43,649 nt of DNA, from contig WQXQ01000006.1 in assembly GCA_009784775.1 (NCBI GenBank), forward strand, positions 1 through 43,649. Reading direction: 5' to 3'. Source of the stretch: Treponema sp. GTDB taxonomy: Bacteria > Spirochaetota > Spirochaetia > Treponematales > Breznakiellaceae. Shown in pieces: positions 508 to 34,777 of this stretch. Every line of letters begins with the position of its first letter. Positions within the stretch are counted from its first letter, which is position 1. Position numbers and translations under genes: made by a program. The notes below the pieces were generated by a model. The model ran no database searches. It saw only the letters and a program-made list of their open reading frames with translations, and was not told the origin of the DNA.

Positions 508-3500
508 TAATATTTGCGAATACGAGATATTTGAATGGCAATTAAACGACCCCTCAGGTAACATATTTGAAAGAGGGATTTTTCAACTTATCAACAAACA
601 ACTTGCGGAAAAATTTGATGCTGGTGTTAGAATCCATCAAACCCCAAGGGGACCAGATGGTGGTAAAGACATAATCATTCACTCTCCTGTATCACTTTGC
701 ATTTTTAATCAAAAATTTGACTTAGGTAATAAGAATGAAATTATAATTTACGTAGAGTGTAAAACTTCTGATGAAAAACGAATTGAGCTTTCTAAGGTTG
801 CAGGATCTGTTATGAGATCTAAGCAAGATAGAATAGATTACTTCATGTTAGTTTCAAATTCAACATTTGCTCCACAGACTCTTTTTATTTTAAAAACTAA
901 TTGTGAAACTGTAGGTATTAAATTTAAGATTGTTGATCAACAATTACTATTAAAAGCCATTGGAAATAAAACAATTTTCAATAATGTGCCAAACAAATTA
1001 GATTCTAATTTGTATTATGAATATCAAGTTAGCGGAACGCAACTTGAAAACAAAAATGCCTATGAAATATTTTTTTCGTACCGGAATCTTGGAAATGAAG
1101 AACAATTAATAACTCAAAAACTTCTAACTGACAATAACTGGAGAGCCAACGAAATTGAACGTAAATTTTTTGTCAATGTTAACGATATTTATATCAATAA
1201 AACTACTATTATACGCGATTTTACAGATGGCATAGAGGATCTTATTTTTTCTGTAGAAAACTATGGAATCAATGAAAAGCAGGTTGAGATTAAGGGTGTT
1301 AAGGGCGCAGGCACAAGACCTGTATTTGAGCCGCCTTTCTGGGGGACTGATCACAAAAACTGCGAAGATTTTTTAATCGCAAGATTCAAAAACTCAATTG
1401 GCTTTGATTTATGTTGTATTTGGGGTGAAGCTGGCATAGGTAAGACACGGATATTCAATGAAGTTTCTAAAAAACTCAGTGGTCAAAATTTTTATTTTTT
1501 GAATGTGTCAGTTAGATCTAACAATAAGTTTTTAAAAGACATAAAAAAGTTTTTAATTAGCAAAAGTTATTTAACAGAAGATAACAAAAGTGAAACTATA
1601 AATAACATGTTGCTTTCTAGTAAAAATGATTTTATGCGTGCAATAATATTAATAGACGATTGTCATAATATTTTAGACAACACGTTAAACGAATTAAAAT
1701 CCTTGAGCGATACAAACATCCCTGTAACTATTGTTTTGTGTGGTAGAACCGACTATAGTGTAGGAACAACCGACTACTATAGCTTTGTGCAGTATACAGA
1801 AAAAGACGAAAATATAGGATGCTGGCATCTCTCTTCTTTCTCTGACGATGATACTAGAAATTTTATACGCGAGATTATTAAACGCATACCAGAAGTAGCC
1901 CTTGATAGAATATGTAAGATGAGCAACAATAACCCCCTGTTTATTATTCATTTTATAGAGTATCTTTTAGAGTTAAACATGGTTGAGATATACAATAGAA
2001 GTTCCGTTGGCGTTACTAATATAAATGCTTTTAATTCACGTTTATATATTCCTCAAAAATTGGAAGAAATATACAAAAAGCGCATAGAATATTTAAATAA
2101 GAATGAATATGATGCTGAAAATCTATTAAAATATCTATACATTCTATCCATTCTTCAAGATAGGCAAACGAAAGAAATGGCACTAACTTGTCTTGCAGAA
2201 GAAAAATTGAATTTTTTAATGCAAAGAAGATTTCTTAATTTTTCAGAAAATGGGGAAATTGTATTTTCACATGAAAGTTTTGCCGTATATATACGGCAGG
2301 CATTGGAAAATAATGCGATATTAAAAAAGAATTTAGCAAATGATTTTTTTTCTAATTTGAGTTATTTACTAGAACACGTGACTATATCAGAAAGAGGTGT
2401 TCTGGCCCTTTGGGCAGAAAAAAAAGAATTCGCAAAAGAATGTTTTATTAATATAGTAAAACTTATTGAACAAACAACAAATCATTCGGCTTTTAACGTA
2501 GATCATAGCTCGAATAAATATCTTGCGCATATTATGGAATTATATGCTAACGACAAGAATAGTAAAGATTTTTTAATTAAAGTAATTAAGACAAAGATAT
2601 ATACTTCAATACATCACTTTAGTCCAACAATAGCTATTAATGATTGTGATGATATATTAAAATATTTGAAAAAAAACAATATGCTAAAAAATGATAAACG
2701 CTTGAACAATTCTGTAAAACAACAGAAAGCACACGCTATGATAATTGCTGGTTATATGTATAATGCCGAGATTTTGATGAAAGAACTTCTTTCTGAGTGG
2801 TTAGTGGATAAAGGCTCACTTGATAAAGATACTCTTTTTGATTTGTTTGATAGATTTTGCGGTTTATATATAAATTTTAATTGTAAAAATCTTGCCATGA
2901 ATTTTAATGAGATGTCTAAAAAAGAAAAAGTTACTGTAGACAACCGATTAATGGCACTTGTCCATCTTAATCACGCAAAAATTTACTTTCTTAGTGATTT
3001 TGAACGTGCATCTAAAAGTCTTTTAAAAATACAAGAGCTGCTTAAAAACGGCAATTCAAAACGTATTTTATGTTCTAGTAAAATATCTTACTTAGTAATT
3101 GAACTACTTCATAAAAAACGTTGCGATTATGACAATATGATAAAAGAGATTCTTGTGCTTTTAAAAGAAGCGTTCGATGGTAATTATGCACACTCCATCG
3201 CAAGAATATATTTAATTTTGGCGGTATTGCATCTTGTTGCCGAAGAACATATCACAAATTTCAATAAAATAATAGACCTTATTGATAAAGGAATTAACTA
3301 TAGCATAAAGTTCGGTTTTGTACGAGAAATGTGGGAGTTTTATAATCTATTAGCGATTATTCAACTTCGTCAAGGAGTCGATTCAGAAGAAATTAGACAA
3401 ACTTTTGCAACGGCGTATACGTTGCTACAAAACCATGATTACCTAAACTTAGGCATGAGAGATTTGTGTTGTGATAATATTTTGCTGCTTAGTAACATTG

Positions 3501-3730
3501 GATTTTTCTATCAATCAAAAAAAACAGAGAAGGAATTTTATGAATATATGTCAAAAATAACTTTCTTCGAAGGTGTTGTTAATCATAAAAAAAGCGATGA
3601 CTCTCTTCTAAAAAAGTTCTTGAAAGAAGAATATTCAAAAGCAAGGAAAAAACAGCTTCTTTTTACACATAGCCCAAACAATGATTTGCTAAGAGACAGT
3701 GTTACCGGATATTTTATAGCTCTTTCTTAA
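503..3730 (+). CDS. Mrr-like restriction-endonuclease domain + STAND/AAA NTPase + TPR-like C-terminus (Avs-like anti-phage candidate)
   Basis: N-terminus FERGIFQLINKQL...GPDGGKDI...IIYVECK matches the Mrr/PD-(D/E)XK pattern. Walker A GEAGIGKT, Walker B AIILIDD, then NNNPLFI. Long helical-repeat C-terminus. AT-rich relative to flanking genes. Confidence 0.85.
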   Translation: MNNICEYEIFEWQLNDPSGNIFERGIFQLINKQLAEKFDAGVRIHQTPRGPDGGKDIIIHSPVSLCIFNQKFDLGNKNEIIIYVECKTSDEKRIELSKVAGSVMRSKQDRIDYFMLVSNSTFAPQTLFILKTNCETVGIKFKIVDQQLLLKAIGNKTIFNNVPNKLDSNLYYEYQVSGTQLENKNAYEIFFSYRNLGNEEQLITQKLLTDNNWRANEIERKFFVNVNDIYINKTTIIRDFTDGIEDLIFSVENYGINEKQVEIKGVKGAGTRPVFEPPFWGTDHKNCEDFLIARFKNSIGFDLCCIWGEAGIGKTRIFNEVSKKLSGQNFYFLNVSVRSNNKFLKDIKKFLISKSYLTEDNKSETINNMLLSSKNDFMRAIILIDDCHNILDNTLNELKSLSDTNIPVTIVLCGRTDYSVGTTDYYSFVQYTEKDENIGCWHLSSFSDDDTRNFIREIIKRIPEVALDRICKMSNNNPLFIIHFIEYLLELNMVEIYNRSSVGVTNINAFNSRLYIPQKLEEIYKKRIEYLNKNEYDAENLLKYLYILSILQDRQTKEMALTCLAEEKLNFLMQRRFLNFSENGEIVFSHESFAVYIRQALENNAILKKNLANDFFSNLSYLLEHVTISERGVLALWAEKKEFAKECFINIVKLIEQTTNHSAFNVDHSSNKYLAHIMELYANDKNSKDFLIKVIKTKIYTSIHHFSPTIAINDCDDILKYLKKNNMLKNDKRLNNSVKQQKAHAMIIAGYMYNAEILMKELLSEWLVDKGSLDKDTLFDLFDRFCGLYINFNCKNLAMNFNEMSKKEKVTVDNRLMALVHLNHAKIYFLSDFERASKSLLKIQELLKNGNSKRILCSSKISYLVIELLHKKRCDYDNMIKEILVLLKEAFDGNYAHSIARIYLILAVLHLVAEEHITNFNKIIDLIDKGINYSIKFGFVREMWEFYNLLAIIQLRQGVDSEEIRQTFATAYTLLQNHDYLNLGMRDLCCDNILLLSNIGFFYQSKKTEKEFYEYMSKITFFEGVVNHKKSDDSLLKKFLKEEYSKARKKQLLFTHSPNNDLLRDSVTGYFIALS

Positions 3731-3757: not shown

Positions 3758-5434
3758 CTAAGTGATGAAATCTTTATCTACAATACAATTTCCTATTATT
3801 AAAGCATCTATTTGTGTTTTTAAAAAAGTTTCTATTGCATCAAAGGGCGACTCAACAATTGGCTCGCCATCTACGTTAAACGATGTATTTACAACAATCG
3901 GAAATCCTATTTTCTCTTCTACTGCTAGAAGAATTTTATGAACGAAAGGTTCTGATTTTACAGACACTGCTTGCACTCGTGCGGTACCGTCAATATGAGT
4001 AATTCCCGGCAACTGACTTTTGAATTCTTCTTTAACCATAGCGGCTACAATCATAAAATTAGACTCAAACTTTAAATCAAAATATTTAAACTGTTCTTCT
4101 GCAATAACTGTGGGTGCAAACGGTCTAAAAGGCTCACGATGTTTAACCTTATAATTTAAAATGTCTTTAATATTTGGATTTTTGGGATTTGCCAGAATAC
4201 TACGATGACATAAAGCACGTGGTCCAATTTCAGTTCGCCCTCTATGCAAAGCTACAATTTTATTTTCAGATATGTATTTTGCTATTTCTTCTGCTAAATG
4301 ATCATCGTGTAATTCCCTGTAATTTAAATTTGCATCTTCTAATGCATTTTTTATTTCTTTATCATTATAAGAAATACCCAAATATGGAAGGTTTATTTTA
4401 AATTTATCTTGTGCTCCAAAATGCTTCCTGTATGCATAATATGCCGAACCTAATGCCTGTCCATCATCTCCAGCAGCTGGAAAAACAAAAAAATTATCTA
4501 AATCAAACTTTTTAATAATTTTAAGATTTAACAAGCAATTCAAAAAAACTCCACCTGATAAAACAAGGTTTTTACATTGGTACAAACATAAAATATCGCA
4601 AATTAGATCTAATATAGTATTTTCAAGCATTAGCTGAATAGTACTAGCTATATTTGCACTATCTTCTCGTATAAATTCTTTATATGTCTTTCCAGACAAT
4701 GTCATTATTGCAAAAATCTCTTCAATTATATCTTTATATTTAAGCGAAAAATCAAGGAAATCGTTCTTCTTATATGCATTGAAATTAAAAAGAGGTTTTC
4801 CGTATCCTGCTAATCCCATAGTTTTTCCTGAACCGCTTCCGCCAAGCCCTAAAAGATTAGTTATTTGACTGAACTTTTTGCCTAAACTCATTTCGAAATT
4901 CTGAACAAATGATGGCATATATGGCAATATATAGTTATGTTCGTCGTTTGCTCTTCCAACGGATGGGTTTTGCAAACGCCTACTTACTACCTCTACTTTA
5001 TTATTTTTGGCAACAAAAAGTGATTCCGCTTCTTGCATACCATTAATATAATCCCCCGCTCCATCGGCCACAAAAACAAGCGCATTGTTAAACCCAGAAG
5101 AGAAAAAAGCAGAATATGCGTGTGCGGTATGATGGTTTGTAAAAAATACAGGTACGTGAATACAATCATAAAACCTTTCAAGCTCTTCTTGATAAAATAT
5201 TTCAATGGAAAACTCTTCTATAGCATGATATGATATTCCAACACAAGAAATATCTTTAAAAGAAAGCTCGAAGTGCTTCAGCAAAGTATTAATGGATTCA
5301 AAAGGGATATTAGAAGAACGTGAATATTTGATTCTATCTAAGCGCTCTTGAGATATTGCACCAATAACAACTCCATCTTTTATTAATGCCGCTCCTCTAT
5401 CATGTCCTATGTGTATACCGAGTGCTATTTTCAT
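3758..5434 (-). CDS. Carbamoyltransferase, NodU/CmcH/TobZ family
   Basis: MKIALGIHIGHDRGAALI...NHHTAHAYSAFFSSGFNNALVFVADGAGD...LSGGVFLNCLLN...GRTEIGPRALCHRSILANP...REPFRPFAPTV...NTSFNVDGEPIVESPFDAI. Confidence 0.93.
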   Translation of the reverse strand: MKIALGIHIGHDRGAALIKDGVVIGAISQERLDRIKYSRSSNIPFESINTLLKHFELSFKDISCVGISYHAIEEFSIEIFYQEELERFYDCIHVPVFFTNHHTAHAYSAFFSSGFNNALVFVADGAGDYINGMQEAESLFVAKNNKVEVVSRRLQNPSVGRANDEHNYILPYMPSFVQNFEMSLGKKFSQITNLLGLGGSGSGKTMGLAGYGKPLFNFNAYKKNDFLDFSLKYKDIIEEIFAIMTLSGKTYKEFIREDSANIASTIQLMLENTILDLICDILCLYQCKNLVLSGGVFLNCLLNLKIIKKFDLDNFFVFPAAGDDGQALGSAYYAYRKHFGAQDKFKINLPYLGISYNDKEIKNALEDANLNYRELHDDHLAEEIAKYISENKIVALHRGRTEIGPRALCHRSILANPKNPNIKDILNYKVKHREPFRPFAPTVIAEEQFKYFDLKFESNFMIVAAMVKEEFKSQLPGITHIDGTARVQAVSVKSEPFVHKILLAVEEKIGFPIVVNTSFNVDGEPIVESPFDAIETFLKTQIDALIIGNCIVDKDFIT

Positions 5435-5477
5435 GTAACCACCATCTATACTTTAGATAATAAATAGTTATCCTACA
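5430..5477 (-). repeat. 48-bp inverted repeat, right copy (IR-R): leader, RBS-like sequence and ATG of the carbamoyltransferase gene
   Basis: Exact reverse complement of 460-507. Confidence 0.97.
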
Positions 5478-11348: not shown

Positions 11349-12761
11349 ATGAAAGTTTCTTTTTATTCCCTTGGCGCTGCCGAAGAAGTAACCGGTTCAA
11401 AACACGTTATCGAAATTGACGGGGAAAGCTACCTTATTGACTGCGGGGCTTTTCAGGGTTCACGGGCCGAGTCCGACCGGAAAAACCGTGACTTTGGCAT
11501 AGAGGTTGACCGCATTGCGGGAACCGTTTTGACCCACGGCCACTATGACCACTGCGGTCTTTTGCCGCTGTTGGTTAAGCGGGGTTATAAAGAGAATATC
11601 TATGCAACTCCGGCAAGCAGGGATATTGCCAGCCTTATCATGATGGATTCCGCCCACATACAGGCGCGTGACGCCGAGTACTTGCGCAAGCAGGCAAAGA
11701 AAAAAGGCGAAAAATTTGACTGGACACCGCTGTACACCGAACAGGACGCCATTGCGGCAGTTAGTCAGACCATTGGGGTATCGTATAACAGACCCATGTT
11801 TATTGGCGATGGGGTAAAACTGGAATTTTACGATGCGGGACACATACTTGGTTCGGCAATGGCGTATCTCACCGTAAAACGAAACGGCAAAGAATTGCGT
11901 ATTCTGGCGACCGGCGATCTTGGCCGCAAAGGCAAGCCCATCATCCGCAATCCGGCAATTCCCGAACTTGCCCCGGACTATATCGTGCTTGAAAGCACCT
12001 ACGGCGACCGCCTGCACGGCAGCACCGATGATGCCATTGCAAAACTGGCGGCATTGGCAAAACGCACCGTTGAAAACAGGGGCAGAATAATTATTCCCGC
12101 TTTTGCCATTGAACGCACCCAGGAACTGGTATATTATTTTCACCTGCTGGTTGACGATGGCATTATTCCCGAAATTCCCATCTATGTGGATTCACCCATG
12201 GCAACAAACGCAACCACGATTTTTCAGGTACATCCCGAATGTTACAGCGAAGAAACAAAAAAAGCCTTTATTCATCATCACAAAAATCCCTTTGGTTTTA
12301 ATAGCCTGCACTTTACTTCCAGCGTTCAGGAATCCAAGGCCCTGAACGATCATAAAGGCCCTGTTATTATCATTTCTGCCGATGGAATGTGCGAAGCCGG
12401 CCGTATTCAACATCATTTGATCCACAGTATTCAGGACCCCAACACCACCATTCTGACCGTGGGCTATATGGCAAAAGATACGCTGGGCCGCCGCATCCGC
12501 AACCGCGAAAGCGATGTAAAAATTCACGGAATGTGGTTTAAGGTAAAAGCCGCTGTCGAGGAAATAAACGCCTTTAGCGCCCATGCCGATTATGCCGAAA
12601 CGCTGGAGTGGCTCAACGCGCTGGACACATCCCGCTTAAAAGGAATTCTTATGGTACACGGCGAAAAGAAAGGTCAGGCAGCCCTTAAGAAATACCTGAA
12701 CGATAATGGTTATCCCAATGTGCAAATAGTTCAGTACGGCAAAACCTACGATTTAGATTAA
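11349..12761 (+). CDS. MBL-fold beta-CASP RNA-processing exonuclease-like hydrolase
   Basis: LTHGHYDHCGLLPLL, YDAGHILGSAMAYL, VLESTYGDR, ISADGMCEAGRIQHHL, INAFSAHADY. Confidence 0.92.
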   Translation: MKVSFYSLGAAEEVTGSKHVIEIDGESYLIDCGAFQGSRAESDRKNRDFGIEVDRIAGTVLTHGHYDHCGLLPLLVKRGYKENIYATPASRDIASLIMMDSAHIQARDAEYLRKQAKKKGEKFDWTPLYTEQDAIAAVSQTIGVSYNRPMFIGDGVKLEFYDAGHILGSAMAYLTVKRNGKELRILATGDLGRKGKPIIRNPAIPELAPDYIVLESTYGDRLHGSTDDAIAKLAALAKRTVENRGRIIIPAFAIERTQELVYYFHLLVDDGIIPEIPIYVDSPMATNATTIFQVHPECYSEETKKAFIHHHKNPFGFNSLHFTSSVQESKALNDHKGPVIIISADGMCEAGRIQHHLIHSIQDPNTTILTVGYMAKDTLGRRIRNRESDVKIHGMWFKVKAAVEEINAFSAHADYAETLEWLNALDTSRLKGILMVHGEKKGQAALKKYLNDNGYPNVQIVQYGKTYDLD

Positions 12762-15700
12762 TTAGTTCTGCCGTAATCCAGGCGCGCAAGCGGGGCCAGT
12801 GTTTCCCAGGGCGATGATTCCGATGCTTCCCGATCGATGCGGATGAATATTTGCGGCTCATAGTTTGCCTGCGGGTACAGGGCATTGCGCGCGTTGAGAT
12901 GGGGCAGGGGAGTGCTGCCGGAACGGAGCATGGAGCGGGGATCGCGGGTGCGGGCATCCCAGGCGCGTTCTGCTTCGGCGTAAAAGGCCAGTGCGCGGGT
13001 TTGGTAGCTGCGGTCTCCGGTTTGGGCGGCGAGCATTTCGCAGGCAACGCCGGCATTGTTCCGGGCCATCATCAGGCGTTCGGCAAGTTCAAGGTATTCG
13101 GGACGATCATTGGGCAGCAATACCGGCAGACGGGATCGCTGGCTTTCAAGTATATCAAGCAGACGGTTGTAATAACCCAGAGCGGCAAAGTAATTGCCCC
13201 GTTTAAGCGCGGCATTTCCCATTGCAAATAAAACACGGCGGTTCAGAGGCAGGCTTGATGAAGCGGTAAATAAGTATTCCAGCGCGTTTCTCCATTCTCC
13301 AAGCTGATAATAAGCCGAACCCATGCGATATTGCATTTCCGGCGGCACCCAGCCATTTTGTTCCGAACGGTGATAGTAACGCAGGGCAGCGCTCATATCG
13401 CCGGTTTTGGTAAAGTATTCAAGGTCGCCCAGCCCGGCATACAGTCTGCCGTATTGAGGCGAACGGGAAATGAGCCGCCGTGAAACCGCGTCTTCGTACA
13501 GATTAATGCCGCGTACCAACTGCTCTTCGGCAGGCAGGAATTCCCTTGCGTTGATTAAAGCATCCGCATAGCGCTGGTGGGTATCAATACGGTAATGGAG
13601 GCGGCGTATCGATTCTTCACTGGCATTGTCAAAGGCGTTAACCGCAATGCGCAGGGTGACCCGCTCTTCATGAGCGTTGCCAAGGTTGTTATAATACCGG
13701 GCAAGGTGATAATGAGGTTCCGGCAGTGAAGGATCGGTGTACACTGCTTCGAGCAGCAGATCGCGGACCCCGTGAATATGCTCAACATATTCGTTGGGAA
13801 CGCCCCGGACTTCTTCAAGTTTTTTGTCCAGCAGATAGCCGCCCAATTCTCCAAGGGATGCAGCCGAAAGTTTCCATTTGGGATGATTATCAAACCAATT
13901 TTTAAGATAGAGCGTTTCTTTGAGATTGTCCGTGCGGATAAAGTACCGCATCATCCGTTCTACAACCGGCGCTTTCCAGCCGTATTTTTCCAGCAGCCGG
14001 GCATAATGAAAACGCGCCTCTTCATATTTGGACGGATCGATTTCGCCCCACATAAGGTGATTGTCGCCTGCCGCAAGTAAACCTTCTTTGTCATTGGGGG
14101 CATAATCCAAAAGCTGATGCCGCAGGATAGTGTCCGCTTTGGCATAATTGCGCAGATAATATGTTTGCAGTTCAGCGTAATCCAATACGCCCTTTTTGTC
14201 GCGGGTATAATACCGGAGTAATTCATCGTATTTTTGTTCAGCGTATATATACTGGCGCTCATCGCGGAAAGCTTCGGCGTATTTGTAAAACCAGTCTTTT
14301 TTGCGATGGGTATTAAAGGCTTCGGTAAAACGCTGATTTGCCCGCTGGTATTCTCCGGCGAATATGCGTTCATAGCCGATTTTGTAAATCGATTCGGCTT
14401 TTAATGGAATATATATAAATTTATATATAAGATACAGGGACGAGGCTGCCACAACGGCAATGAACATAAAAAGCCGCAGCATTGGCAGGAAATTGTGCAC
14501 AAAAATATACGCAAAACTTGCCTGTTCTGCTTCCAGCTCCGCGCCGGAGCTTTTTTCAAACGCCTTTGGTACAAAAATTGTTTTGCCCAGTATCTTGCTT
14601 GCCAGCAGAGCGGTTTCTTTTGCCGATGCGCCCCAGACAAGATGTTCAATCAAGTCCGACATTTGCTTCGGATTAACGACATGCTCGGCGATTATTTCTT
14701 CGCAGGCCATGCGTAAATTGAGCGGATACCGGGACAGTGTTTCCTGTAAATTTTCAACTTCATCATCAGTGAGCTGTATTTCTTCCACATCATCAGATGC
14801 GGTTGGTATTATCCGTTGTGGTTTTTTTGCCTTCTTGTCTGCTGCTTTTTTCGCCGCGTCAGTTTTCTTCTGTGATCTTTCCAGTATATGGTCCAGACCG
14901 TCGAAAGAGAACTCTTCATGAGCACCGCGGACACTGCCTGAATCAAAATCCTCTTGCAATTCATCGGGAGAAACAAAGTCATCAAACTCGCCCAAATCAG
15001 CAATTGCGCCTGTCGGGGCTGGTTCATCGGGGAAGCCAAAGCCGTCTATACTGTCGGTGTCAAAACTTGTATCGTCCGCGGGGAACGATTCATCGGAGAA
15101 CGATTCGGCGGAGAACGATTCAGCGGGAAGGTCAAAACGGTCTGTGCTGTCGGTGTCAAAGTTTGTATCGTCTGCGGGGAACGATTCGGCGGAGAACGAT
15201 TCATCAGAGAGCGATTCAACGGAGAACGATTCATCGGGAAGGTCAAAACTGTCTGCGCTGTCGGTGTCAAAGTTTGTATCGTCTGCGGGGAATGATTCGG
15301 CAGTGAATGATTCAGCAGGGAACGATTCATCGGAGAACGATTCATCGGAAAGGTCAAAACGGTCTGCGCTGTCGGTGTCAAAACTTGTATCGTCTGCGGG
15401 GAATGATTCCACGGTGAATGATTCGGCAGGGAACGATTCATCGGAGAACGATTCAACGGGAAGGTCAAAACTGTCTGTATTGTCGTCGTCAAAGCGTATA
15501 TCAGTGTCTGCCGGGGTTGGTGCATCTGCCAGGATTGGCTGGTCGGGAACAGGGCTGCTGTCCGCCGCTTCTTCGGGAAGATCAACGCGGTCAGCGCTGT
15601 CAAGGTCGCTGGTTTTACTGTATATTTCCGGAATTGATTCTTCAGGGAAGTCAAAATTGTCCAGGCTGTCAAGGTCAAGGGGTTTGCTGGGGAACGGTTC

Positions 15701-16111
15701 ATCGTCAAAACTGGTGTCGCTGGCTGCTGCTGCGACAGGCTCATCTGCCGGCAGCGCATCAAGTTCTTTGGAAAGGTTGGACAAAAGTTCTTCAGGAGAA
15801 TAGAACGATTCTTCCGGCTGGGCGCTGGTAAACGCGCTGAAATCTATTTCATCGCCTATAGGGTCGGTATCGTCAGAATCGGCGTCATCAGGATCGGTAT
15901 CATCAATATAGAGTTCATTGGTGCCATAGTCAAAGCCCAGGTCGTCTTCCTGTCCGCTTTCTGCCCTGAGATTTTGTACCATTGGCTCCGGTTCAAAATC
16001 GGGAAGTTCCATATCATCGAAAGGAATGCCCTTGGCCTTAAGATCGACCAGCTGCCCTCCGATGTCGGCAAGAGAGTTTTTAAATCTTTTAATAGCACTT
16101 CGTGACGGCAT
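12758..16111 (-). CDS. TPR-repeat protein with N-terminal acidic repeat region and one TM segment
   Basis: Repeated DESFSDESFPAESFTAESFPADDTNFDTDSADSFDLP; TM MLRLFMFIAVVAASSLYLIYKFIYIPL; C-terminal TPR-like helices. Confidence 0.85.
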   Translation of the reverse strand: MPSRSAIKRFKNSLADIGGQLVDLKAKGIPFDDMELPDFEPEPMVQNLRAESGQEDDLGFDYGTNELYIDDTDPDDADSDDTDPIGDEIDFSAFTSAQPEESFYSPEELLSNLSKELDALPADEPVAAAASDTSFDDEPFPSKPLDLDSLDNFDFPEESIPEIYSKTSDLDSADRVDLPEEAADSSPVPDQPILADAPTPADTDIRFDDDNTDSFDLPVESFSDESFPAESFTVESFPADDTSFDTDSADRFDLSDESFSDESFPAESFTAESFPADDTNFDTDSADSFDLPDESFSVESLSDESFSAESFPADDTNFDTDSTDRFDLPAESFSAESFSDESFPADDTSFDTDSIDGFGFPDEPAPTGAIADLGEFDDFVSPDELQEDFDSGSVRGAHEEFSFDGLDHILERSQKKTDAAKKAADKKAKKPQRIIPTASDDVEEIQLTDDEVENLQETLSRYPLNLRMACEEIIAEHVVNPKQMSDLIEHLVWGASAKETALLASKILGKTIFVPKAFEKSSGAELEAEQASFAYIFVHNFLPMLRLFMFIAVVAASSLYLIYKFIYIPLKAESIYKIGYERIFAGEYQRANQRFTEAFNTHRKKDWFYKYAEAFRDERQYIYAEQKYDELLRYYTRDKKGVLDYAELQTYYLRNYAKADTILRHQLLDYAPNDKEGLLAAGDNHLMWGEIDPSKYEEARFHYARLLEKYGWKAPVVERMMRYFIRTDNLKETLYLKNWFDNHPKWKLSAASLGELGGYLLDKKLEEVRGVPNEYVEHIHGVRDLLLEAVYTDPSLPEPHYHLARYYNNLGNAHEERVTLRIAVNAFDNASEESIRRLHYRIDTHQRYADALINAREFLPAEEQLVRGINLYEDAVSRRLISRSPQYGRLYAGLGDLEYFTKTGDMSAALRYYHRSEQNGWVPPEMQYRMGSAYYQLGEWRNALEYLFTASSSLPLNRRVLFAMGNAALKRGNYFAALGYYNRLLDILESQRSRLPVLLPNDRPEYLELAERLMMARNNAGVACEMLAAQTGDRSYQTRALAFYAEAERAWDARTRDPRSMLRSGSTPLPHLNARNALYPQANYEPQIFIRIDREASESSPWETLAPLARLDYGRTN
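15053..15480 (-). repeat. Nested tandem repeat (~111/96-bp units built from 15-bp sub-repeats) inside the TPR-protein CDS
   Basis: The landmark gtcggtgtca recurs at 15053, 15149, 15260 and 15371 (spacing 96, 111, 111). Between landmarks are 15-bp units of type GAGAACGATTCATCG. Confidence 0.9.
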
Positions 16112-16152: not shown

Positions 16153-16908
16153 ATGAAAACGATCAAAATTGTAACAGTTTTAGTATTTTTTCTTTTTACA
16201 GCCGGTTTTTCCCAGGCTGTAGAGATAGAATCGCTTGAATCGCTGTATCTTATAGACCGTTTATTGAGCCTTTCGGGGCCGGGCGCGCCGGAAATAGTTG
16301 ACGATTTGGTGATTTTTACCGCCTCATCCGCTTTGCGCCGGGTGGGTATTGCCTTTGCCGATGAGGGCTTTGGCAAAGTCTATTGGTTCAGGCAATTGCT
16401 GGTTTCCCGTGATCCTTTGGATATTTCCCCACACGAAAAAAATCCCAATCTGCACAGAGATTCCGGTATTGTGTTTCATGTCTATCAAATTCCCGAAGAA
16501 GCCACAGAAATTGGGTATAGGCTGATAATTGACGGCCTGTGGACAAGCGATCCCGCCAATCCCCATAGCCGGCGGAACAATGCCGGGCTTTCCTGGTCTG
16601 TTCTTACTGTTCCGCCCAGAGAAACGGTGCACAGCCCCCTTAAAGGACCCCCCGGCAGCCTGAGTTTTGTTTTTAAGGGACCGCCCGGCGAAACGGTTTC
16701 GGTGGCGGGTGATTTTAACGGCTGGGATCCTTTCATGTATGAGCTTAAAGAAGGCCCCGCCGGAAATTACAGTATCAATATCCCGCTTCCGCCGGGAACC
16801 TATCAATATGTGTTCTTCCACAGGGGTCAGCGCTATCTGGACCCCTATAACGGAAGGCGCATCTACTCAAAAGACGGAAAATCCGCTTCAGAAATTGTAA
16901 TTCAGTAA
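16153..16908 (+). CDS. Exported protein with C-terminal glycogen-binding/CBM48-like domain
   Basis: Signal peptide MKTIKIVTVLVFFLFTAGFSQA; SFVFKGPPGETVSVAGDFNGWDPFMYELKEGPAGNYSINIPLPPGTYQYVFFHRG. Confidence 0.85.
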   Translation: MKTIKIVTVLVFFLFTAGFSQAVEIESLESLYLIDRLLSLSGPGAPEIVDDLVIFTASSALRRVGIAFADEGFGKVYWFRQLLVSRDPLDISPHEKNPNLHRDSGIVFHVYQIPEEATEIGYRLIIDGLWTSDPANPHSRRNNAGLSWSVLTVPPRETVHSPLKGPPGSLSFVFKGPPGETVSVAGDFNGWDPFMYELKEGPAGNYSINIPLPPGTYQYVFFHRGQRYLDPYNGRRIYSKDGKSASEIVIQ

Positions 16909-18315
16909 TTCCAGAAAACCCGGATAGGTAACATCGGCGCTTTCCGCCCCGTCAATGTCGATGGGGGCTTGCGCGGCTAATGCGGCGGCGGCAAAGGCCA
17001 TGACGATGCGATGGTCGCCGTGGCCGTCAATGACACCGCCGGAAATGGCGGCCTTGCCGTTGCCGGCGGCGTTGCCGTGGACGATGAGGCCGTCGGGCAA
17101 TTCTGTGCAGCGGACGCCCAGTTTGGCCAGTTCCGCCGCCATAACCGCAATGCGATCGGTTTCCTTAATGCGGGCATGAGCGACATTGACCAGGGCGGTA
17201 TCGCCTTCGGCAAAGGCGGCGGTTACCGCGATAACGGGAAGCAGATCCGGCGTGTCATTCAGGTCAAAGGTATTGCCCCCGCGCAAAGGCCCTGCACGGG
17301 AAACCGTCAGCCTATGTCCAACAGTACTATTACTCATTTGCGACTCTTCTCCCCCCACTCCCCAACTAACCGAACAACCCATGCGGGTCAGTATTTCAAG
17401 AAAAAATTTGTCGCCCTGTGTGTCGTTTGGATCAAGGCCCAAAATGGTAACCGAACCGCCGGAAATTACCGCAGCGCAAGCGGGAAATGCGGCGGAGGAA
17501 AAGTCCCCCGGCACGGCCGCTGAAAAAGGCTTCCATGCAGCGCCGCCCGGAATAACAAAATAGGAATAAAACGGTTTCTGTGACGCCGCCGCCGGCTTCG
17601 CAGAAGACGCAGCTTCCCAGGGTATGCCGTGCGCATCCAGATAGGAAAGGGTCATCTCGATATAGGGACGCTCGTTCAGCAGAGGAACGGTAATTTCGGT
17701 AATGGTACCGGCGGGAGCCAGCGGCGCAGTAAGCAACAGCGCGGAAAGGTACTGGCTGGTGGGGCAGGGGAGATTGACTTTGCCGCTATCCCAGGGGCCC
17801 TGGATAACAATGGGTGCGCAGCCATTGCCTTGTACCGATTCAGCGCGGATACCCAGGCCGGAAAGCGCTTCCAGCAGCGGGGCTGCGCTGCGCCGCTGAA
17901 TTTGCGCATCCCCGGTAAAGGTATACGGCTTATCGTCCAGCCCCGCCGCCGCCATGGCAAGATACAAGGTTGTCCCCGAATTCCCCACGTCGATTTCAAA
18001 AAGGTGACTGACACCTTTTTGGCTGCCGTCTTCAAAAAGGTGACTGACACCTTTTTGGACACCTTTCTTGAAGCGGTTGTTGCCATGGACGGTGAACGAA
18101 ACAAGTTTGCCGTCATTGCGGTGCTCCGTGATTACCGCGCCAAAGGCACGGCAGGCGGTGATACAGGCCTGGGTATCCAGCGAATCAAGGGGGTGCATTA
18201 TTTCGGAAACACCATCGGCAAGGGAGGCAATTAACAACTGCCGGATAGTATGGGATTTTGACCCGGGAATCCGTATAGTGCCGGAAAAAACATGGGGGCT
18301 AATGCGGGCGCGCAT
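16888..18315 (-). CDS. aroA: 3-phosphoshikimate 1-carboxyvinyltransferase (EPSP synthase)
   Basis: FSGTIRIPGSKSHTIRQLLIASLADG...DVGNSGTTLYL...DGHGDHRIVMAFAAAAL. Confidence 0.93.
   Translation of the reverse strand: MRARISPHVFSGTIRIPGSKSHTIRQLLIASLADGVSEIMHPLDSLDTQACITACRAFGAVITEHRNDGKLVSFTVHGNNRFKKGVQKGVSHLFEDGSQKGVSHLFEIDVGNSGTTLYLAMAAAGLDDKPYTFTGDAQIQRRSAAPLLEALSGLGIRAESVQGNGCAPIVIQGPWDSGKVNLPCPTSQYLSALLLTAPLAPAGTITEITVPLLNERPYIEMTLSYLDAHGIPWEAASSAKPAAASQKPFYSYFVIPGGAAWKPFSAAVPGDFSSAAFPACAAVISGGSVTILGLDPNDTQGDKFFLEILTRMGCSVSWGVGGEESQMSNSTVGHRLTVSRAGPLRGGNTFDLNDTPDLLPVIAVTAAFAEGDTALVNVAHARIKETDRIAVMAAELAKLGVRCTELPDGLIVHGNAAGNGKAAISGGVIDGHGDHRIVMAFAAAALAAQAPIDIDGAESADVTYPGFLELLNYNF
17997..18057. 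repeat. Two tandem copies (36-bp period) of palindrome CAAAAAGGTG-ACTGA-CACCTTTTTG inside aroA
   Basis: Copies at 17997-18021 and 18033-18057, each with perfect 10-bp arms; encode QKGVSHLFE twice in frame. Confidence 0.9.
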
Positions 18316-24323: not shown

Positions 24324-26311
24324 AAACGATCAAAATAATACTTTTTTCCGCTTTGATTTCCGTTTTTTGTTTGGCGAGTTGTCAAAACCCTTGGGTCACG
24401 TCAATTTTGCCGGACAGGGATGAGAACAAACCAGTACCGGAATTCCCTGTCCTTACACTGTCACCGGCGGTGACCGTTATCGGCCCGGAGGTTGTTGGTT
24501 ACGATGAGGATGATGAGGATCTGGAAAAAACGATAACGATTACCAATAGCGGCAACAGCGCGGCAACGGTAACGGACATTTCGCTTGACGGCGATGATCC
24601 CCATGCATTCGAGCTGGTATTCGACCTGAATGACATAAATCCCATTGCGGCGGCAGGCGGTACCGCAGAATTTACGATAAAACCGGCAGCAGGGCTTGAT
24701 GCCGACACATACACCGCCGTTGTCACCGTAACGTATGATGATGACCGGGAAGCGCACGCCGCTGTAACATTTACCGTGTTACCCGAAACTGTTTTCCCTG
24801 TTACCATACAAATCGACGGCAATGGCACCGTAACCGTAAACTCGGAGCCTGTTGCGCATAGCGAATCCGTCCCCATCGAAATGGAAGCGCAAGTAACCAT
24901 CGAAGCGGCACCCGCCAATGCCGGGCACCAGTTTAAGGAATGGCAGATCATTGATGGCGATGTAATACTTGCAGATCTAACCGAAAACCCCGCGGTATTT
25001 GCAATGCCGGGTGAAGCGGTAACCATTAAGGCAGTGTTTGAAGCGTTAATCCCGAATCTCTCGCTGTCGCCGTCATCAATAGCATTTGGTACCATTTTAT
25101 TCGGCGAAGAGCTGCCTGCGGCAAGAACCATAACGGTTACCAATGACGGCAACGGCGCGGCAACGATAACAAACATTATACTTGGCGGTACTCATTCCGC
25201 CGCATTCGCAGTAAGCGCTGCAGGGACTCCTATTGTTGTTGCGGCGGACGGCGGCACCGAACCCTTTACGGTACGGCCGACAGCGACAGGGGTTGGCTCC
25301 TATAGCGCCACTGTTATCGTGGAATATGATGGCGGCGCGGAAACCAATGCCGTTACGCTTACCTTTACAATCAACGAAATGCCTGTTCCGGAATTGATTC
25401 TGTCACTGGATCCGGAAAACAGCCAAGTAGTGGCATACAACTATGCCGATACCGATATTGAGCCGGTAATCGTAACCATTACCAATGACGGTAACGGCGC
25501 GGCAGCAATTTCCGGCATTGCCATTACCGGCGATACCGCCGCATTTAGCTGGACGCAGGGCGAAGTAGACGCCATTACTGCCATTGCGGCAGGCGGCAGC
25601 GCGGACTTTACGGTACAGCCGGAATTGGGACTTCCTGTCGGCACGTACACCCTCGCCATTACGGTAGACTATGATGATGACGCAGAGGCAGACATAACGA
25701 TTTCCTTTGAAGTAACGTCGGCCGTCCCGAATATTAATTGGTCATTGCTTGATGGCCTGGAAGCGTTCTGCGGACAATTCCTGTCAGATGTAAACCTGCC
25801 GGAAAGAAACAGTACGGGCAGCCCATGGACTCCGGGCGGCTTTAGCTGGATGGTCCTGGATCCGGACGAAATCGAATTCGATGCGGCTGGCGATTTATCG
25901 TTCGGGGTGTTATTTACGCCGGATGATGTAAACTACAATTCTGCGCAAAGAACGGTAACCGTCACCGTTAAGGCGCCGGTAACCGTAACCATAACGTTTG
26001 ATCCCATTGAAGATGTTTTGAAAGACTGGTCGCCGGGATTAACCTATGATGATGAGACAAAAACAATTGCCATTCATCGCAGTACCGGTATAACCATTAA
26101 TCTGACTGATAATAATTACACGGACATACACTGGTCTTTAAGCCCGGGTGATTTTGGCAGTGTGGAAAATGACGGTACGTCTTTTGTGCTTGCTTTTGAC
26201 GATGACTATGATGAGGAAGAGACGTATATCCTGACACTCAGCTTGAAAAGCGGCGGCGTGCCGTATAATCGCACAATTAGAATTTGGGTAACGCCGGAGG
26301 AGACACCATGA
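24320..26311 (+). CDS. Lipoprotein with choice-of-anchor-D-like repeat domains
   Basis: Lipobox FCLASC; repeated TITNSGNSAATVTDISLDGDDPHAFEL..., ITVTNDGNGAATITNIILGGTHSAAFAV..., VTITNDGNGAAAISGIAITGDTAAFSW. Confidence 0.85.
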   Translation: MKTIKIILFSALISVFCLASCQNPWVTSILPDRDENKPVPEFPVLTLSPAVTVIGPEVVGYDEDDEDLEKTITITNSGNSAATVTDISLDGDDPHAFELVFDLNDINPIAAAGGTAEFTIKPAAGLDADTYTAVVTVTYDDDREAHAAVTFTVLPETVFPVTIQIDGNGTVTVNSEPVAHSESVPIEMEAQVTIEAAPANAGHQFKEWQIIDGDVILADLTENPAVFAMPGEAVTIKAVFEALIPNLSLSPSSIAFGTILFGEELPAARTITVTNDGNGAATITNIILGGTHSAAFAVSAAGTPIVVAADGGTEPFTVRPTATGVGSYSATVIVEYDGGAETNAVTLTFTINEMPVPELILSLDPENSQVVAYNYADTDIEPVIVTITNDGNGAAAISGIAITGDTAAFSWTQGEVDAITAIAAGGSADFTVQPELGLPVGTYTLAITVDYDDDAEADITISFEVTSAVPNINWSLLDGLEAFCGQFLSDVNLPERNSTGSPWTPGGFSWMVLDPDEIEFDAAGDLSFGVLFTPDDVNYNSAQRTVTVTVKAPVTVTITFDPIEDVLKDWSPGLTYDDETKTIAIHRSTGITINLTDNNYTDIHWSLSPGDFGSVENDGTSFVLAFDDDYDEEETYILTLSLKSGGVPYNRTIRIWVTPEETP

Positions 26312-29300
26312 GGAGATTAAAAATGAGAAAACCAGCTTTATTCGTTGTTCTTTGTTCTTTGTTCTTTGTCATTGCTTGTCAAAATCCTTTTACCGGCGTG
26401 CCGCAGCAAAAGCAGCAGGCAATACCGGCAGGCATGGGAGCTTTGTCTGTGCAGATTGATACTGCGCGGACTATTGTACCCAATGCGGCATTAGGCAACT
26501 TTAAATTCAAACTTATTTTAGACGAAGAAGAAATATTTGATGATTACTATGCGGTGTTGGAGCGCGAAACTTTTTATCTGGCAGCAGGAGAACAAGATTA
26601 CGAGCTTGTAGTGATTGCATATCTGCCGGTAGCAGGTTTGGGCAGCAGCAGGCCTGTGGCAACAGTGACACGGGAAATAACCATTATTGCAGGCGAAACA
26701 ACCTACATTGCTATCACCATTCCTCTGGTGGCAAATAATACTGCCGGCAAAGGCTTGTTTACGTTTGGCATAACGTTCAATGACCCTTTACCCAGTGCGC
26801 TGCATAATGCCAGTATGACCGTTGAACCCCTGCCCGGTACCGTTGAAGATACGCACACAGTGCATTTTTATCAGAACGGAGCAGAGGTATTGGAGCGTGT
26901 TGCGCTGCTTGATCTTGAATCAGGGTATTATCAGGTAACGTTTAATCTGGAAAAAACCGGACACTTTGAGCCTCTTGTCTGGCAGGAAATATTGCATATC
27001 TATGAAAACATGGTAAGCGATTTTGAGCATTCCTTTTTTGATTCGGATTTTAACGTCACCAAGTACACCATAACATTTTACCGTAATGATGGAACGAACG
27101 GGTGGTATGCGAGACAAACTCGCGCTCATGGCGAAGAGGCAGTCAATATTGCCGTTCCGCCCAGGCCCGGTTATAACTTTGTTGAGGGCAACTGGTTCGA
27201 AAAGGAAGGCGAAAATCTTAAACCTGCACGTTATAATTTTGACGAGCCGGTTGAAAGTAATATTGCCCTATATGCCAAATGGACGCCGATACTTGACGAA
27301 GGTACGGCAGGCATTTCTGTAGGCGGCGATGGAATCCTTAAAATTGGCGCCGTGTTAAACGCGGTGACCAGCACCATTACCGCTGGTGAGGGGGATGTTA
27401 CCAACCTTCCTGGAGCTGGTTTTACGTATGAATGGCGGCGATGGAATATGGCCCGCACCAATTTTACTACAGCTATTCTTGGTACCGATCCAACTTATAC
27501 GGTGACTGGCGCGGATGCAGGCCGGATGATTTCCTGTGTAATCACCCATACAGGTACAGGTGTCATCGTTTACGCAGGTATAGATGGCGATGTTACCGCA
27601 ACAACGGCAATAGTGCCGTATACCATTGTGATTGATCCGATCGTTATCATTAAAGATGAGTTGACCGGGGTTGAAGCAAATGCGCTTGCTGCAGACAAAT
27701 CTTTAGGTCTGGTTGGTGAGATCATAACCTTAACCTATACACTTGCCCGTCCCTCTTTTTACAACGAGATTACCTTTGAATTTGACAATATTGAGTATGT
27801 TGACGAGCTTGGTCCCGGTGTTCCTTTGACTGATGAATTGGAATATACCGTCAGAGCGCTTGATGCTGATCAAAACGGTGAAATTATCATTGTTGCTACA
27901 TTTACCCATACGGATTTGGACATAATACACATTCATTTTGAAAAACCGCAAAGTGAAATTGAACCAATTACTTACGGTGATAATGTGTATACCAATGCGA
28001 TTGTACCTGGTCATCCAGGTTCCGGCACGCTTACGTATTCCAGTAGTAATACCGAAGTTGCTACGGTAAATTCCAGCGGCGTGGTGAGTATATTGAGGGC
28101 AGGTACGGTACACATAAGCGCCGTAAAAGCGGCGGATGCAGTGTACGCACGGGTAAGCGCCTCCTACTCATTAACGATTGATCGCAAGACACTTGCGTGG
28201 GACAATACCGGCACAGTGGCCGATAAAGACTATGATCGCACGACCACTGTTACCGCGGTTACCAAACAGCCGGGTTTGACTGGATTTGTGAACGCCGAAA
28301 CCGTTGATCCGGTTTACGGCACCGTACGATTTGCCGACGCAAATGCGGGAACGAGTGTTGCGGTGATAGCTCAAAGTTACAGTATTGCAAGTGCAGGTCC
28401 TTACGCAGGCAACTATGACCCGCCGGAGAATCCGCCGGTATTTGCCCCTGCAGCAATAAGACCGCTGAGACTTACCTGGAACGCTAACGGTGTAGTAAAC
28501 GATAAAGAATATGACGGCACTGGAAGCGCAAGCGTTCTTACGCAACCAACGCTTGCTGGTATTCTAAGTCCTGATAGTGTTACCAGAGTATACGGCACCG
28601 TAAGCTTTGACGATTCGAATGTTGGCCCAACGGTTGGAATAACCGCGAGCGGCTATGGTATTAACGATGCTTCCGGCAACTATGCTCCGCCGCTCGATCA
28701 GCCGGTATTTGCCGCTGCGCAAATCACGCCCAAGCCGTTAACCATTATCAACGTGGCGCATACCAAAGTGTACGATGGTGATGCAACCATACCCGAAGGT
28801 GTAACCGTTACCCTTATCGGCAACATGGGTACTGACGACATAGATGTAGAATATGATAATATTCCGGCGGCCTATACCGGTAATACAGCGGGAACAAGCA
28901 CCGTTACCGTGAATGCTGCCGATGTAATTCCGCTCCTGAGCGGCGATGATGCCGGTAACTATACGGTAGCGCAGCCCGCTGAGCCTGTTGAAAATACTTT
29001 GGCTGGTATCAGGAGACGGCCGTTGGGAATTACCCCCCCAACCGCGCCTGCCGCATGGACTAAAGTCTATGATGGAAATACCGTATACTCAGGCACTATA
29101 ACAGAAGGTGACTTAACCAACAACACAGTAGCAGGTGACACGATTACCGTCACTGTTGCCAGCGCGAATTTTAATAATGCCAATGTCACGGAAGCAAACG
29201 CTATCACGATTGTATACGCCATTGACAGCGCTTCCGAGGTTAATTACATCAGGCCTGGTAACACTTCCATTAATTCTGGCGTGAGTATTACCCCGGCTGC

Positions 29301-31896
29301 CGGGTGGGCAGTTGGTATACCCAATGCCGCAATGGAAGGCATAACAGATACCTCCATTACGATTGTCGCAGTGAATAAAATAACACCCTCACCCGATGCG
29401 CCCAACACGCAAACCGTAGAATACGCTCGCAGCACTACCGCTGGTTTGACTGGAGCGCCGTTGAATGCCCTTGCATGGCAGTCCGGTCTGACATTTACCG
29501 GCCTGACACCAAACACCGACTACTATGTGTATGCCCGTTCTGCGGCAGATGATGACAACTACACAGTGGGCCCGGCAAGTCAGAGTGCGGCCATTAGAAC
29601 AAACGCCCTGTCTCTTACCGGCGCGAATTTTACGGCAAGTAACCTTTCCTGGATTTACGGCGACCCGGATAAAGCAGTAACGGCTGGTTACACCACCGGC
29701 GTTGTTGATGGCCATGCGGTGAACCAAGCCAATGCCGGAACGATTACTGTCCATTATATAAGTACAGACGGCGGTGTAGCGTATTCTCTGAATGACGCAG
29801 TGCCCACCAATGCGGGAACATACTATATTCGGGTAACCACCAGCGGCGGCGCTATTTTTGCCGCTATCACCACGCCGATACCGCTAATTCCGTCTGTTGC
29901 GCTCACCATTGAGCCCAAGCCCATTACGGTTACTCCCACTGCGGGGCAAACGAAAGTATACGGCAATCCTGATCCTGTAGATGGATTTGCCTACACCATA
30001 ACTGCCGGGGCACTGGTTCCCGGAGACATTTTCTCCGGCGCTTTGTCCCGCGTTACTCCGAGTAACCACAATGTCGGATCATACAACATAACGCAGGGCA
30101 CGTTTACCATAGTGCGGGCAGCAGGCGGAGCTCCTGCGGTAAGTAACTATGACTTGACCGTTACTGCGGGCGTTCCATTTGGCATTACCGCGCGGTCGGT
30201 TACCATTACGCCGAATCCGGGACAATCCAAAACGTACAATCCTCCCGATTATGCGGATCCGCCGCTTTCGTATACGCCAAGCGAAGAGAGATTGTCCGGC
30301 AATGCTGAATCCGGCGCGTTAGATCGTGCATCGGGTAACAACGTTGGTTCCTACGCCATAGGACCCGGCGATTTGAGTTGGGGCAGCAATTACACGCTGA
30401 TATTGAATGCAACAACCGTGTCCTTTACCATTAACCCCGCAGAAATCACCACTGCCGCCATCACGGTAAGCACTCCGGCAACAGCCGCACCGGTGAGTAC
30501 CACGGCAACCGGCACGGGTAATTTCACGCTCAGCGCCGTGACATGGGCTCCGTCGGGCCATGCCGTGTTCCAGGGTTCCACCGTCTATACGGCGACCGTG
30601 ACACTAACGGCAGCAGCCAACTATGTGTTTGCGGGAACCCTGACAACCCCAACCATAAGCGGGGGAGCGGCAACCGTTCCAAATAACACCGGATCAACCG
30701 TAACCCTTTCTCGTGTATTCTCGATAACAGGAGCCAAAACAGTAACCGGTATCGCGGTAATCGCAGAACCAACGCTGGTATCATACATCCACGGTGATAC
30801 ACCAAACCTTGCCGGGCTGCAGGTAAGACTTACCTACAGTGACTCCAGCACCGAAGTGGTAGCGTTTGCCGATTTTGAGGATCACAATATAGAAACCAAT
30901 CCGTCAAGCACGACGGTACTGTCACGGGCAACGCATCATGGCCAGCCCATTGCGGTCAGCTGCGGCGATCCATCAGCAAACACCAGCCGTACGTTAACCG
31001 TTGGCCAAAAAACGCTTACGATTACCGGCGTGAACGCAACAAACCGCGCGTATAGTACTGCTGCTCCGCCTGCCAATACCACCGTTGCACTGACTGGCGG
31101 GACACTGGTTGGCGTTATAGCCGATGATGCCGATAATGTCGGCTTTACCCGGGGCAGCGGCACCATCACCACGCCTAATGCAGGCGGGCCTTATCCCGTT
31201 ACCACGGACATTACCCTGTCCGGTACTGCCGCGTCGAACTACACGCTGACACAGCCCACCTATGTAACGGTGACTATCACCAAGGCTGCCGGCGGAGCGG
31301 TTAGCGCGCCGACACGGGCATCGGGAACAACGACCAGCATTACCATTAACGCAGTACCGCGTACAACGGCAAATGCCGAGCAAGCGGGTGTTGAGTACGC
31401 TATCAGCACCGCTACTCCCTTTGATGCTTCACAATTGATTGGTGCATGGCAGACTGGTTTGACATTCAGCGGTTTAACTGCAAATACCAACTACTATGTG
31501 TATGCCCGTTCGCAGGAAAGCGACAACTACTCCAGCGGTACCCCAACCAGCAGTTTGGCAATAAATACCGGCCTCAGTTTTAGCATTGTCTATGAGAACG
31601 ATACTAATCAGCTGATGAAGCCGCCGGCATGGAATAACATTGTCATAGACCTTCGTCTTCCTGCCGATCCTAGAGAGCTGACACTGCCTGCCGGGTTTAG
31701 CTCCCCTGAGTGGTATCTGAGCGGTAGACCAGGTTCAGACCCCATAAGCACTGCCGCAACGATTGATCTGAGAAGTCTTTTACGAACAACCGATGGCGCG
31801 CCTGCTCCAGGGCAGCTCAATACCTTATTTTTAATAGCGGTACGTGCTGGTGTGCCGTATCAATTAGAAATAGATTTCACGGTAATAAGGCCTTAA
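26308..31896 (+). CDS. Giant lipoprotein with InlB-type repeat, YDG/MBG-type repeats and Fn3-like segments
   Basis: Lipobox FVIACQ; ITFYRNDGTNGWYARQTRAHGEEAVNIAVPPRPGYNFVEGNW...ALYAKWTP; repeated AWDNTGTVADKDYDRTT..., KVYDGDATIPEGVTV..., YVYARS. Confidence 0.85.
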   Translation: MRRLKMRKPALFVVLCSLFFVIACQNPFTGVPQQKQQAIPAGMGALSVQIDTARTIVPNAALGNFKFKLILDEEEIFDDYYAVLERETFYLAAGEQDYELVVIAYLPVAGLGSSRPVATVTREITIIAGETTYIAITIPLVANNTAGKGLFTFGITFNDPLPSALHNASMTVEPLPGTVEDTHTVHFYQNGAEVLERVALLDLESGYYQVTFNLEKTGHFEPLVWQEILHIYENMVSDFEHSFFDSDFNVTKYTITFYRNDGTNGWYARQTRAHGEEAVNIAVPPRPGYNFVEGNWFEKEGENLKPARYNFDEPVESNIALYAKWTPILDEGTAGISVGGDGILKIGAVLNAVTSTITAGEGDVTNLPGAGFTYEWRRWNMARTNFTTAILGTDPTYTVTGADAGRMISCVITHTGTGVIVYAGIDGDVTATTAIVPYTIVIDPIVIIKDELTGVEANALAADKSLGLVGEIITLTYTLARPSFYNEITFEFDNIEYVDELGPGVPLTDELEYTVRALDADQNGEIIIVATFTHTDLDIIHIHFEKPQSEIEPITYGDNVYTNAIVPGHPGSGTLTYSSSNTEVATVNSSGVVSILRAGTVHISAVKAADAVYARVSASYSLTIDRKTLAWDNTGTVADKDYDRTTTVTAVTKQPGLTGFVNAETVDPVYGTVRFADANAGTSVAVIAQSYSIASAGPYAGNYDPPENPPVFAPAAIRPLRLTWNANGVVNDKEYDGTGSASVLTQPTLAGILSPDSVTRVYGTVSFDDSNVGPTVGITASGYGINDASGNYAPPLDQPVFAAAQITPKPLTIINVAHTKVYDGDATIPEGVTVTLIGNMGTDDIDVEYDNIPAAYTGNTAGTSTVTVNAADVIPLLSGDDAGNYTVAQPAEPVENTLAGIRRRPLGITPPTAPAAWTKVYDGNTVYSGTITEGDLTNNTVAGDTITVTVASANFNNANVTEANAITIVYAIDSASEVNYIRPGNTSINSGVSITPAAGWAVGIPNAAMEGITDTSITIVAVNKITPSPDAPNTQTVEYARSTTAGLTGAPLNALAWQSGLTFTGLTPNTDYYVYARSAADDDNYTVGPASQSAAIRTNALSLTGANFTASNLSWIYGDPDKAVTAGYTTGVVDGHAVNQANAGTITVHYISTDGGVAYSLNDAVPTNAGTYYIRVTTSGGAIFAAITTPIPLIPSVALTIEPKPITVTPTAGQTKVYGNPDPVDGFAYTITAGALVPGDIFSGALSRVTPSNHNVGSYNITQGTFTIVRAAGGAPAVSNYDLTVTAGVPFGITARSVTITPNPGQSKTYNPPDYADPPLSYTPSEERLSGNAESGALDRASGNNVGSYAIGPGDLSWGSNYTLILNATTVSFTINPAEITTAAITVSTPATAAPVSTTATGTGNFTLSAVTWAPSGHAVFQGSTVYTATVTLTAAANYVFAGTLTTPTISGGAATVPNNTGSTVTLSRVFSITGAKTVTGIAVIAEPTLVSYIHGDTPNLAGLQVRLTYSDSSTEVVAFADFEDHNIETNPSSTTVLSRATHHGQPIAVSCGDPSANTSRTLTVGQKTLTITGVNATNRAYSTAAPPANTTVALTGGTLVGVIADDADNVGFTRGSGTITTPNAGGPYPVTTDITLSGTAASNYTLTQPTYVTVTITKAAGGAVSAPTRASGTTTSITINAVPRTTANAEQAGVEYAISTATPFDASQLIGAWQTGLTFSGLTANTNYYVYARSQESDNYSSGTPTSSLAINTGLSFSIVYENDTNQLMKPPAWNNIVIDLRLPADPRELTLPAGFSSPEWYLSGRPGSDPISTAATIDLRSLLRTTDGAPAPGQLNTLFLIAVRAGVPYQLEIDFTVIRP
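26347..26369 (+). repeat. Heptanucleotide repeat (GTTCTTT)3 in the signal-peptide coding region
   Basis: GTTCTTT at 26347, 26354 and 26361, followed by GT. Confidence 0.85.
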
Positions 31897-31918
31897 GAAG
31901 GATATAAGGAGAAGTAAA

Positions 31919-34762: not shown

Positions 34763-34777
34763 CGGAGGAGAAGTAAA

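Follow-up and report, generated by a model that had tools for sequence, protein, structure and literature searches.

Rickettsia palindromic elements (RPEs) are palindromic repeats that are kept in frame within genes and translated, and those of the RPE-1 type are about 100 to 150 bp long. The shorter RPEs carry a CGTC tag, and CGTC repeats have no known RAYT partner (PMC3733652). GTAG REPs are short multicopy hairpins, mostly intergenic, that surround an HUH/Y1 RAYT gene (Nunvar 2010, PMC2817692; Quentin 2018, PMC6006769). Class 2 RAYTs have an HUH motif and a Y---NP signature, and in E. coli TnpA_REP residues Q95, E100, and R104 contact the GTAG guide (PMC6006769). REPs of the GTAG and CGTC types have also been described in frame, as single, paired, or clustered copies, in genes for known proteins, and these intragenic REPs have been proposed to lie in loops and linkers (Di Nocera 2013, PMC3733652). 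In that work, GTAG repeats were listed in Proteobacteria, Cyanobacteria, Chloroflexi, and PVC, and CGTC repeats were listed in five phyla, including Spirochaetes, without a transposase; its main text mentions neither aroA nor Lon protease nor Treponema. Since in-frame REPs are already known, the insertion described here is of a known kind. What is new is an untagged, RAYT-linked family in spirochaetes and the recurrent use of the same enzyme loops by repeats of different families. The locus is of interest because noncoding, probably mobile hairpins have become stable parts of essential enzymes, which was undescribed for this lineage in the literature searched, and because a putative partner transposase is supplied by the same genome.

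The window is the whole stretch of DNA that was analyzed, 43,649 nucleotides from a Treponema genome (G000). Its aroA gene contains the palindrome CAAAAAGGTGACTGACACCTTTTTG as two exact copies with start positions 36 bp apart (Table 1), as stated in the original prediction. In 100 dinucleotide shuffles of the window, there were zero matches to the palindrome with up to 3 mismatches allowed. As single-stranded DNA, each copy folds into a 10-bp stem with a 5-nt loop (dG of about -9 kcal/mol; z of about -5 to -6). A decayed third copy had also been proposed; a partial copy is indeed present and is better described as a left half-copy. Both full copies and the half-copy are translated in frame within aroA, directly before the DVGNSGTT motif, where the insert had been placed. 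The insert had been credited with adding roughly 25 residues. There are 25 residues between F82 and I108, but orthologs have 8 to 9 residues in that stretch, so the net extension of AroA is about 16 to 17 residues and not 25.

Table 1. Features of aroA and its palindromic insert (positions in the window)
Feature	Position	Strand	Remarks
aroA, EPSP synthase, 475 aa, uninterrupted	16888..18315	-	PF00275, E=2.9e-87; TIGR01356; EPSP-synthase fold
Conserved EPSP synthase motif DVGNSGTT, residues 109-116	17968..17991	-	Alignment of 40 AroA proteins; directly after the insert
Whole REP-derived loop, residues 83-107 (KKGVQKGVSHLFEDGSQKGVSHLFE)	17995..18069	-	Low-confidence coil between two strands (AlphaFold)
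REP copy A	17997..18021, core 18003-18015	.	Exact palindrome; 3'-most of the aroA copies; read as QKGVSHLF from the aroA strand
Spacer between copies A and B, 11 bp	18022..18032	.	Encodes most of EDGS
REP copy B	18033..18057, core 18039-18051	.	Same sequence as copy A; offset by 36 bp (12 codons)
REP half-copy (left half)	18058..18070	.	Read as KKGV (coding strand, AAGAAAGGTGTCC); alignable to the one REP of aroA in the closest relative, G037

By equivalog model, fold, and conserved residues, the protein is an EPSP synthase. The match to TIGR01356, the aroA equivalog, is full length and scores 356 bits against a cutoff of 287. Comparison with relatives gave a pN/pS of 0.29 to 0.35, and aroA is under purifying selection. 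An AlphaFold2 model built with 40 homologs had a mean pLDDT of 91, and its best PDB match is EPSP synthase (TM, 0.82 to 0.84). Within this model the insert is coil with a block-mean pLDDT of 53 to 73, located between strands 70-77 and 106-109. The prediction is thus of an intact EPSP synthase with the insert as a flexible loop, and the earlier views that the enzyme otherwise looks intact and that the insert is probably tolerated as a surface loop agree with the scores and with this model.

The palindrome belongs to a family with the consensus A5-N-GGTGAYTGACACC-N-T4 (AAAAA-N-GGTGAYTGACACC-N-TTTT). Searches of the G000 genome, a 2.40-Mb draft in 153 contigs, returned 19 places with 2 or fewer mismatches to the palindrome, compared with 0 for a reversed-pattern control. 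There were 44 exact GGTGNYTGNCACC cores, 37 of which share the A5...T4 context, giving a family of about 37 copies; the palindrome is therefore not confined to aroA. The majority lie between genes, and many form arrays in which the copies are spaced, for example, at 37, 41, and 39 bp. Gene bodies hold at most 6 of the 37 copies, whereas about 90% of the sampled DNA lies in long ORFs, and the intragenic depletion has a p value of about 1e-16 when tested conservatively at 80% coding. Being short, hairpin forming, multicopy, mainly extragenic, and clustered, the family consists of REPs in the wide sense. In a sample of the phylum, only 8 of 296 genomes had any match to the palindrome, and most copies were within the window's own taxonomic family. 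The literature was searched for the core sequence and for REPs of termite-gut treponemes, which we take the organisms studied here to be, and nothing relevant came up.

The elements differ from both described tagged types. Unlike GTAG REPs, they have an A-tract/T-tract stem and a GGTG/CACC center, and none of the 37 aligned copies has a GTAG or GTGG tetranucleotide at the foot of the hairpin. The family consensus likewise contains neither an unpaired CGTC (or TGTC/CCTC) tag nor a CCA tail; because the tag is missing when the consensus is compared with the published description (PMC3733652), membership in the RPEs or CGTC repeats is ruled out. In its main points the original reading is supported. 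The original comparison with RPEs is correct in that a palindrome persists in frame within a gene, but the element is shorter, lacks the CGTC tag, and is linked to a RAYT. This linkage also sets the untagged spirochaete family apart from those surveyed previously (PMC3733652).

The largest array in G000, comprising 15 palindromes, surrounds a gene for a 192-aa Y1 transposase on contig C22, and a search for a linked REP-type transposase thus found one. The protein matches Y1_Tnp (PF01797) and NF047646 (REP_Tyr_transpos; 95 bits against a cutoff of 80), and among PDB entries it is closest to E. coli TnpA_REP (4er8; E=1.4e-5). The alignment contains the class 2 signature, with HIH as the HUH motif and YIDQNP as Y---NP. 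The gene is flanked by multicopy palindromes that are also present elsewhere in the genome, as is characteristic of a RAYT. A second Y1 gene of G000, on C65, had no palindrome nearby. Most of the residues with which E. coli TnpA_REP contacts the tag are missing from the C22 RAYT: three of them, Q95, E100, and R104, are replaced by G, A, and K (WGSRFFARPAK versus WQPRFWEHAIR), in line with the missing GTAG tag. Together, the lack of the tag in 37 copies and the loss of these residues rule out a canonical GTAG REP. Judged by likeness to the published description, the RAYT-hairpin pair is closest to the "atypical structures" of subclass 2.6 (PMC6006769). This untagged pair offers a system for asking how RAYTs recognize DNA without GTAG.

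Sixteen RAYT homologs of the genus, with at least about 58% identity, were compared. The palindrome flanks the RAYT at 8 of the 16 loci, in 7 genomes, and the other half have no palindrome nearby. RAYT loci contained 36 palindromes in 51 kb, compared with 4 in 216 kb of aroA and dus control loci, an enrichment of about 40-fold. These data identify the palindrome as a RAYT-linked, atypical REP. As with GTAG REPs and their RAYTs, the loop variant changes from genome to genome, and the copies beside the RAYT change with it. At RAYT loci the variants are mostly genome specific (ATTGA in G000, ACTGT in G024, CCTGG in G035, and ACTGA in G034 and G011), with mixtures in G037 (CCTGA and ACTGT) and G022 (CCTGG and ACTGA). 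The in-gene REP variant matches that of the resident RAYT strictly in G022 and G037 but not in G000, where the C22 array is of the ATTGA type and the aroA and dus copies are of the ACTGA type. The aroA copies therefore do not have to stem from recent activity of the RAYT now present.

We consider it highly probable that the palindrome is a RAYT-partnered, nonautonomous REP-like element that landed in a tolerant loop of EPSP synthase, was later duplicated, and is now near-neutral. The small element would have as its partner the C22 RAYT, an HUH/Y1 transposase of the same genome, which is proposed to cut and rejoin single-stranded hairpins and so to spread them through the genome. It is unlikely that the repeats instead multiplied through replication slippage and through recombination or gene conversion among existing copies, with the RAYT being incidental and merely carrying repeats in its flanks. 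Such a process would fit the clean 36-bp unit of the aroA duplication, the arrays of about 37 bp, and the difference in loop type between the G000 aroA copies and the RAYT-side array; it would also fit G025, which has 31 copies and no RAYT found, although that genome is only 83% complete. The scattered single copies at unrelated sites argue against it. So does the concentration of palindromes near RAYT genes, which is seen in several genomes and involves a different loop variant from one genome to another.

Across the AroA orthologs of the genus, the residues that lead up to DVGNSGTT form a hypervariable stretch. A check of aroA in close relatives for absence of the element had been suggested. 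The closest ortholog, that of G037 (76% identity), is the exception: the other orthologs compared have no palindrome at that site, and distant AroA proteins lack the segment as well, but the G037 gene has one sister-type palindrome, AAAGGTGTCAGGCACCGTTT, at the same site, read as PKGVRHRL. Because the closest relative already has one palindrome at this spot, the insertion probably predates the split and was duplicated later in the window's lineage. Since the G037 palindrome aligns with the half-copy of the window's aroA, the simplest history would be one ancestral insertion followed by a 36-bp duplication. In terms of the RAYT-partnered element, one copy would have landed in frame in an insertion-tolerant loop at the surface of EPSP synthase before this lineage and its closest relative diverged, and a 36-bp (12-codon) unit would then have been duplicated in tandem in this lineage, perhaps by slippage. 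In G021 the REP of aroA lies in the second of two AroA loops (MVSVTH, codon 226), and a different repeat (CCTCTGTGTCCTCCGTG...) occupies the first. AroA carries REPs in three species.

A hairpin kept at one site could have been adopted for a function, acting either in the mRNA, by slowing translation or stabilizing the message, or in the protein, as a loop with a binding role. The stems are perfect in both aroA copies, and the sister species, too, has kept a palindrome at this site. We nevertheless find adoption very doubtful, as the loop is short or replaced by unrelated sequence in most relatives and its predicted order is low.

Within G000 and the related genomes, the surviving in-gene copies are in frame and, where their position can be judged, lie in loops or linkers. 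In this they resemble the intragenic GTAG and CGTC REPs. In Dus, one and the same loop is occupied in G000, by the ACTGA type, and in G022, by the CCTGG type. G022 also has a pair of REPs in Lon, spaced 48 bp (16 codons), in the stretch that separates the lid domain (to residue 569) from the protease domain (from residue 611). Further in-frame REPs are present in NrdD of G022, MutS of G028, and PheS and a GH95 glycosidase of G002, with a possible one in MetH of G000. G250, a single-contig genome from another genus of the same family, has 49 copies. Some of these are in frame within PurD and TrmD, and others form a cluster, spaced at 51 bp (17 codons), that precedes a UDG domain. The tandem spacings within genes, 36, 48, and 51 bp, are all multiples of three. 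Selection would have purged out-of-frame or misplaced copies, and the loop that remains on the functional enzyme would therefore be translated and disordered, and neutral or nearly so.

Because in-frame REPs occur in the single-contig G250, draft assembly does not explain the pattern. An assembly artifact or a decaying pseudogene in the 153-contig genome is accordingly most improbable, given also the intact frame, the full-length model match, and the purifying selection on aroA. A chance palindrome, or a native AroA loop conserved by descent as PKGVRHRL at the same place in the closest relative might suggest, is ruled out by the empty shuffles and the genome-wide count, with the same 13-bp core recurring across the genome and beside RAYTs and missing from other AroA proteins at that site.

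Several candidate in-gene sites were rejected. The recurrent LARMDM..DIEKVPDTA site, present in G000 C111 and in five relatives, belongs to a conserved segment of a gene and is not an insert, and the 841-aa ORF of L266 runs antisense to Lon. A nagB-like site of L187 (KVPDTALTVGVGT), presumably native to that family, was dropped as an in-gene insert, and several other apparent matches were dropped as chance or false ORFs. Separately, five contigs of G025 (C60, C128, C143, C170, and C186) have inverted palindrome pairs 54 bp apart that resemble REPIN-type doublets.

Other repeat families occupy enzyme loops as well. The Dus loop that holds REPs is filled by CACGGAG.../CTCCGTG... repeats in G002, G004, G008, G012, G028, and G037. 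GGGACTG-armed elements are abundant in G000 (179 and 192 half-sites; control, 4 and 7). Of 32 clusters sampled, 20 lie within ORFs of at least 150 aa, and elements are in frame within PrmC, TruB, ValRS, HydF, RNase II, a helicase (twice), and others. These findings show that the in-frame repeats of aroA exemplify a widespread habit. Depending on the species, the AroA or Dus loop is short, REP filled, or filled by another repeat, and the group is therefore a natural experiment on selfish DNA creating protein loops. More tentatively, unrelated hairpin families (RAYT-linked GGTG REPs, GGGACTG-armed elements, and CACGGAG/CTCCGTG repeats) may independently and repeatedly colonize the same insertion-tolerant loops of essential enzymes in this spirochaete family. 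Across much of the proteome, mobile DNA might then be the main factor that sets how long loops are and what sequence they have, with in-gene REPs sometimes being replaced by the variant of the resident RAYT.

The GGGACTG elements have heptad arms and inverted AGTCCCC arms and span about 95 to 185 bp (G000 loci L052, L062, L063, L070, and L362-L374). In housekeeping genes they are nearly always read as GTGDWGLGTRD...PQSPVPSPQS, and we presume that they may be akin to cyanobacterial heptamer repeats. Repeats of the form CACGGAGACACGGAG / CTCCGTGTCTCTGTG are translated within enzyme loops of several species (Dus of L319, L320, L326, L327, and L329; AroA of L162).

Elsewhere in the window, a 1117-aa TPR protein gene (12758-16111, minus strand) contains a 111-bp tandem repeat (15023-15502). 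Large paralogous lipoprotein-like genes (starts at 26284, 31919, 34778, and 40664) occupy 26284-42757 and have repeated N-terminal segments that are 62 to 79% alike. By eye, 38708-39500 and 40175-40516 encode a putative nucleotidyltransferase/HEPN-like pair and a HicB-like antitoxin, near which lie two nearly identical terminator-like hairpins (38669 and 39803). A perfect 48-bp inverted repeat (460-507 and 5430-5477) has arms that end in the start codons of two convergent genes, encoding an AAA/NTPase (503-3730) and a carbamoyltransferase (3758-5434). Just outside it are a tyrosine recombinase fragment (12-410) and a promoter-like site (419-447), and the locus looks like an invertible, phase-variable gene switch.
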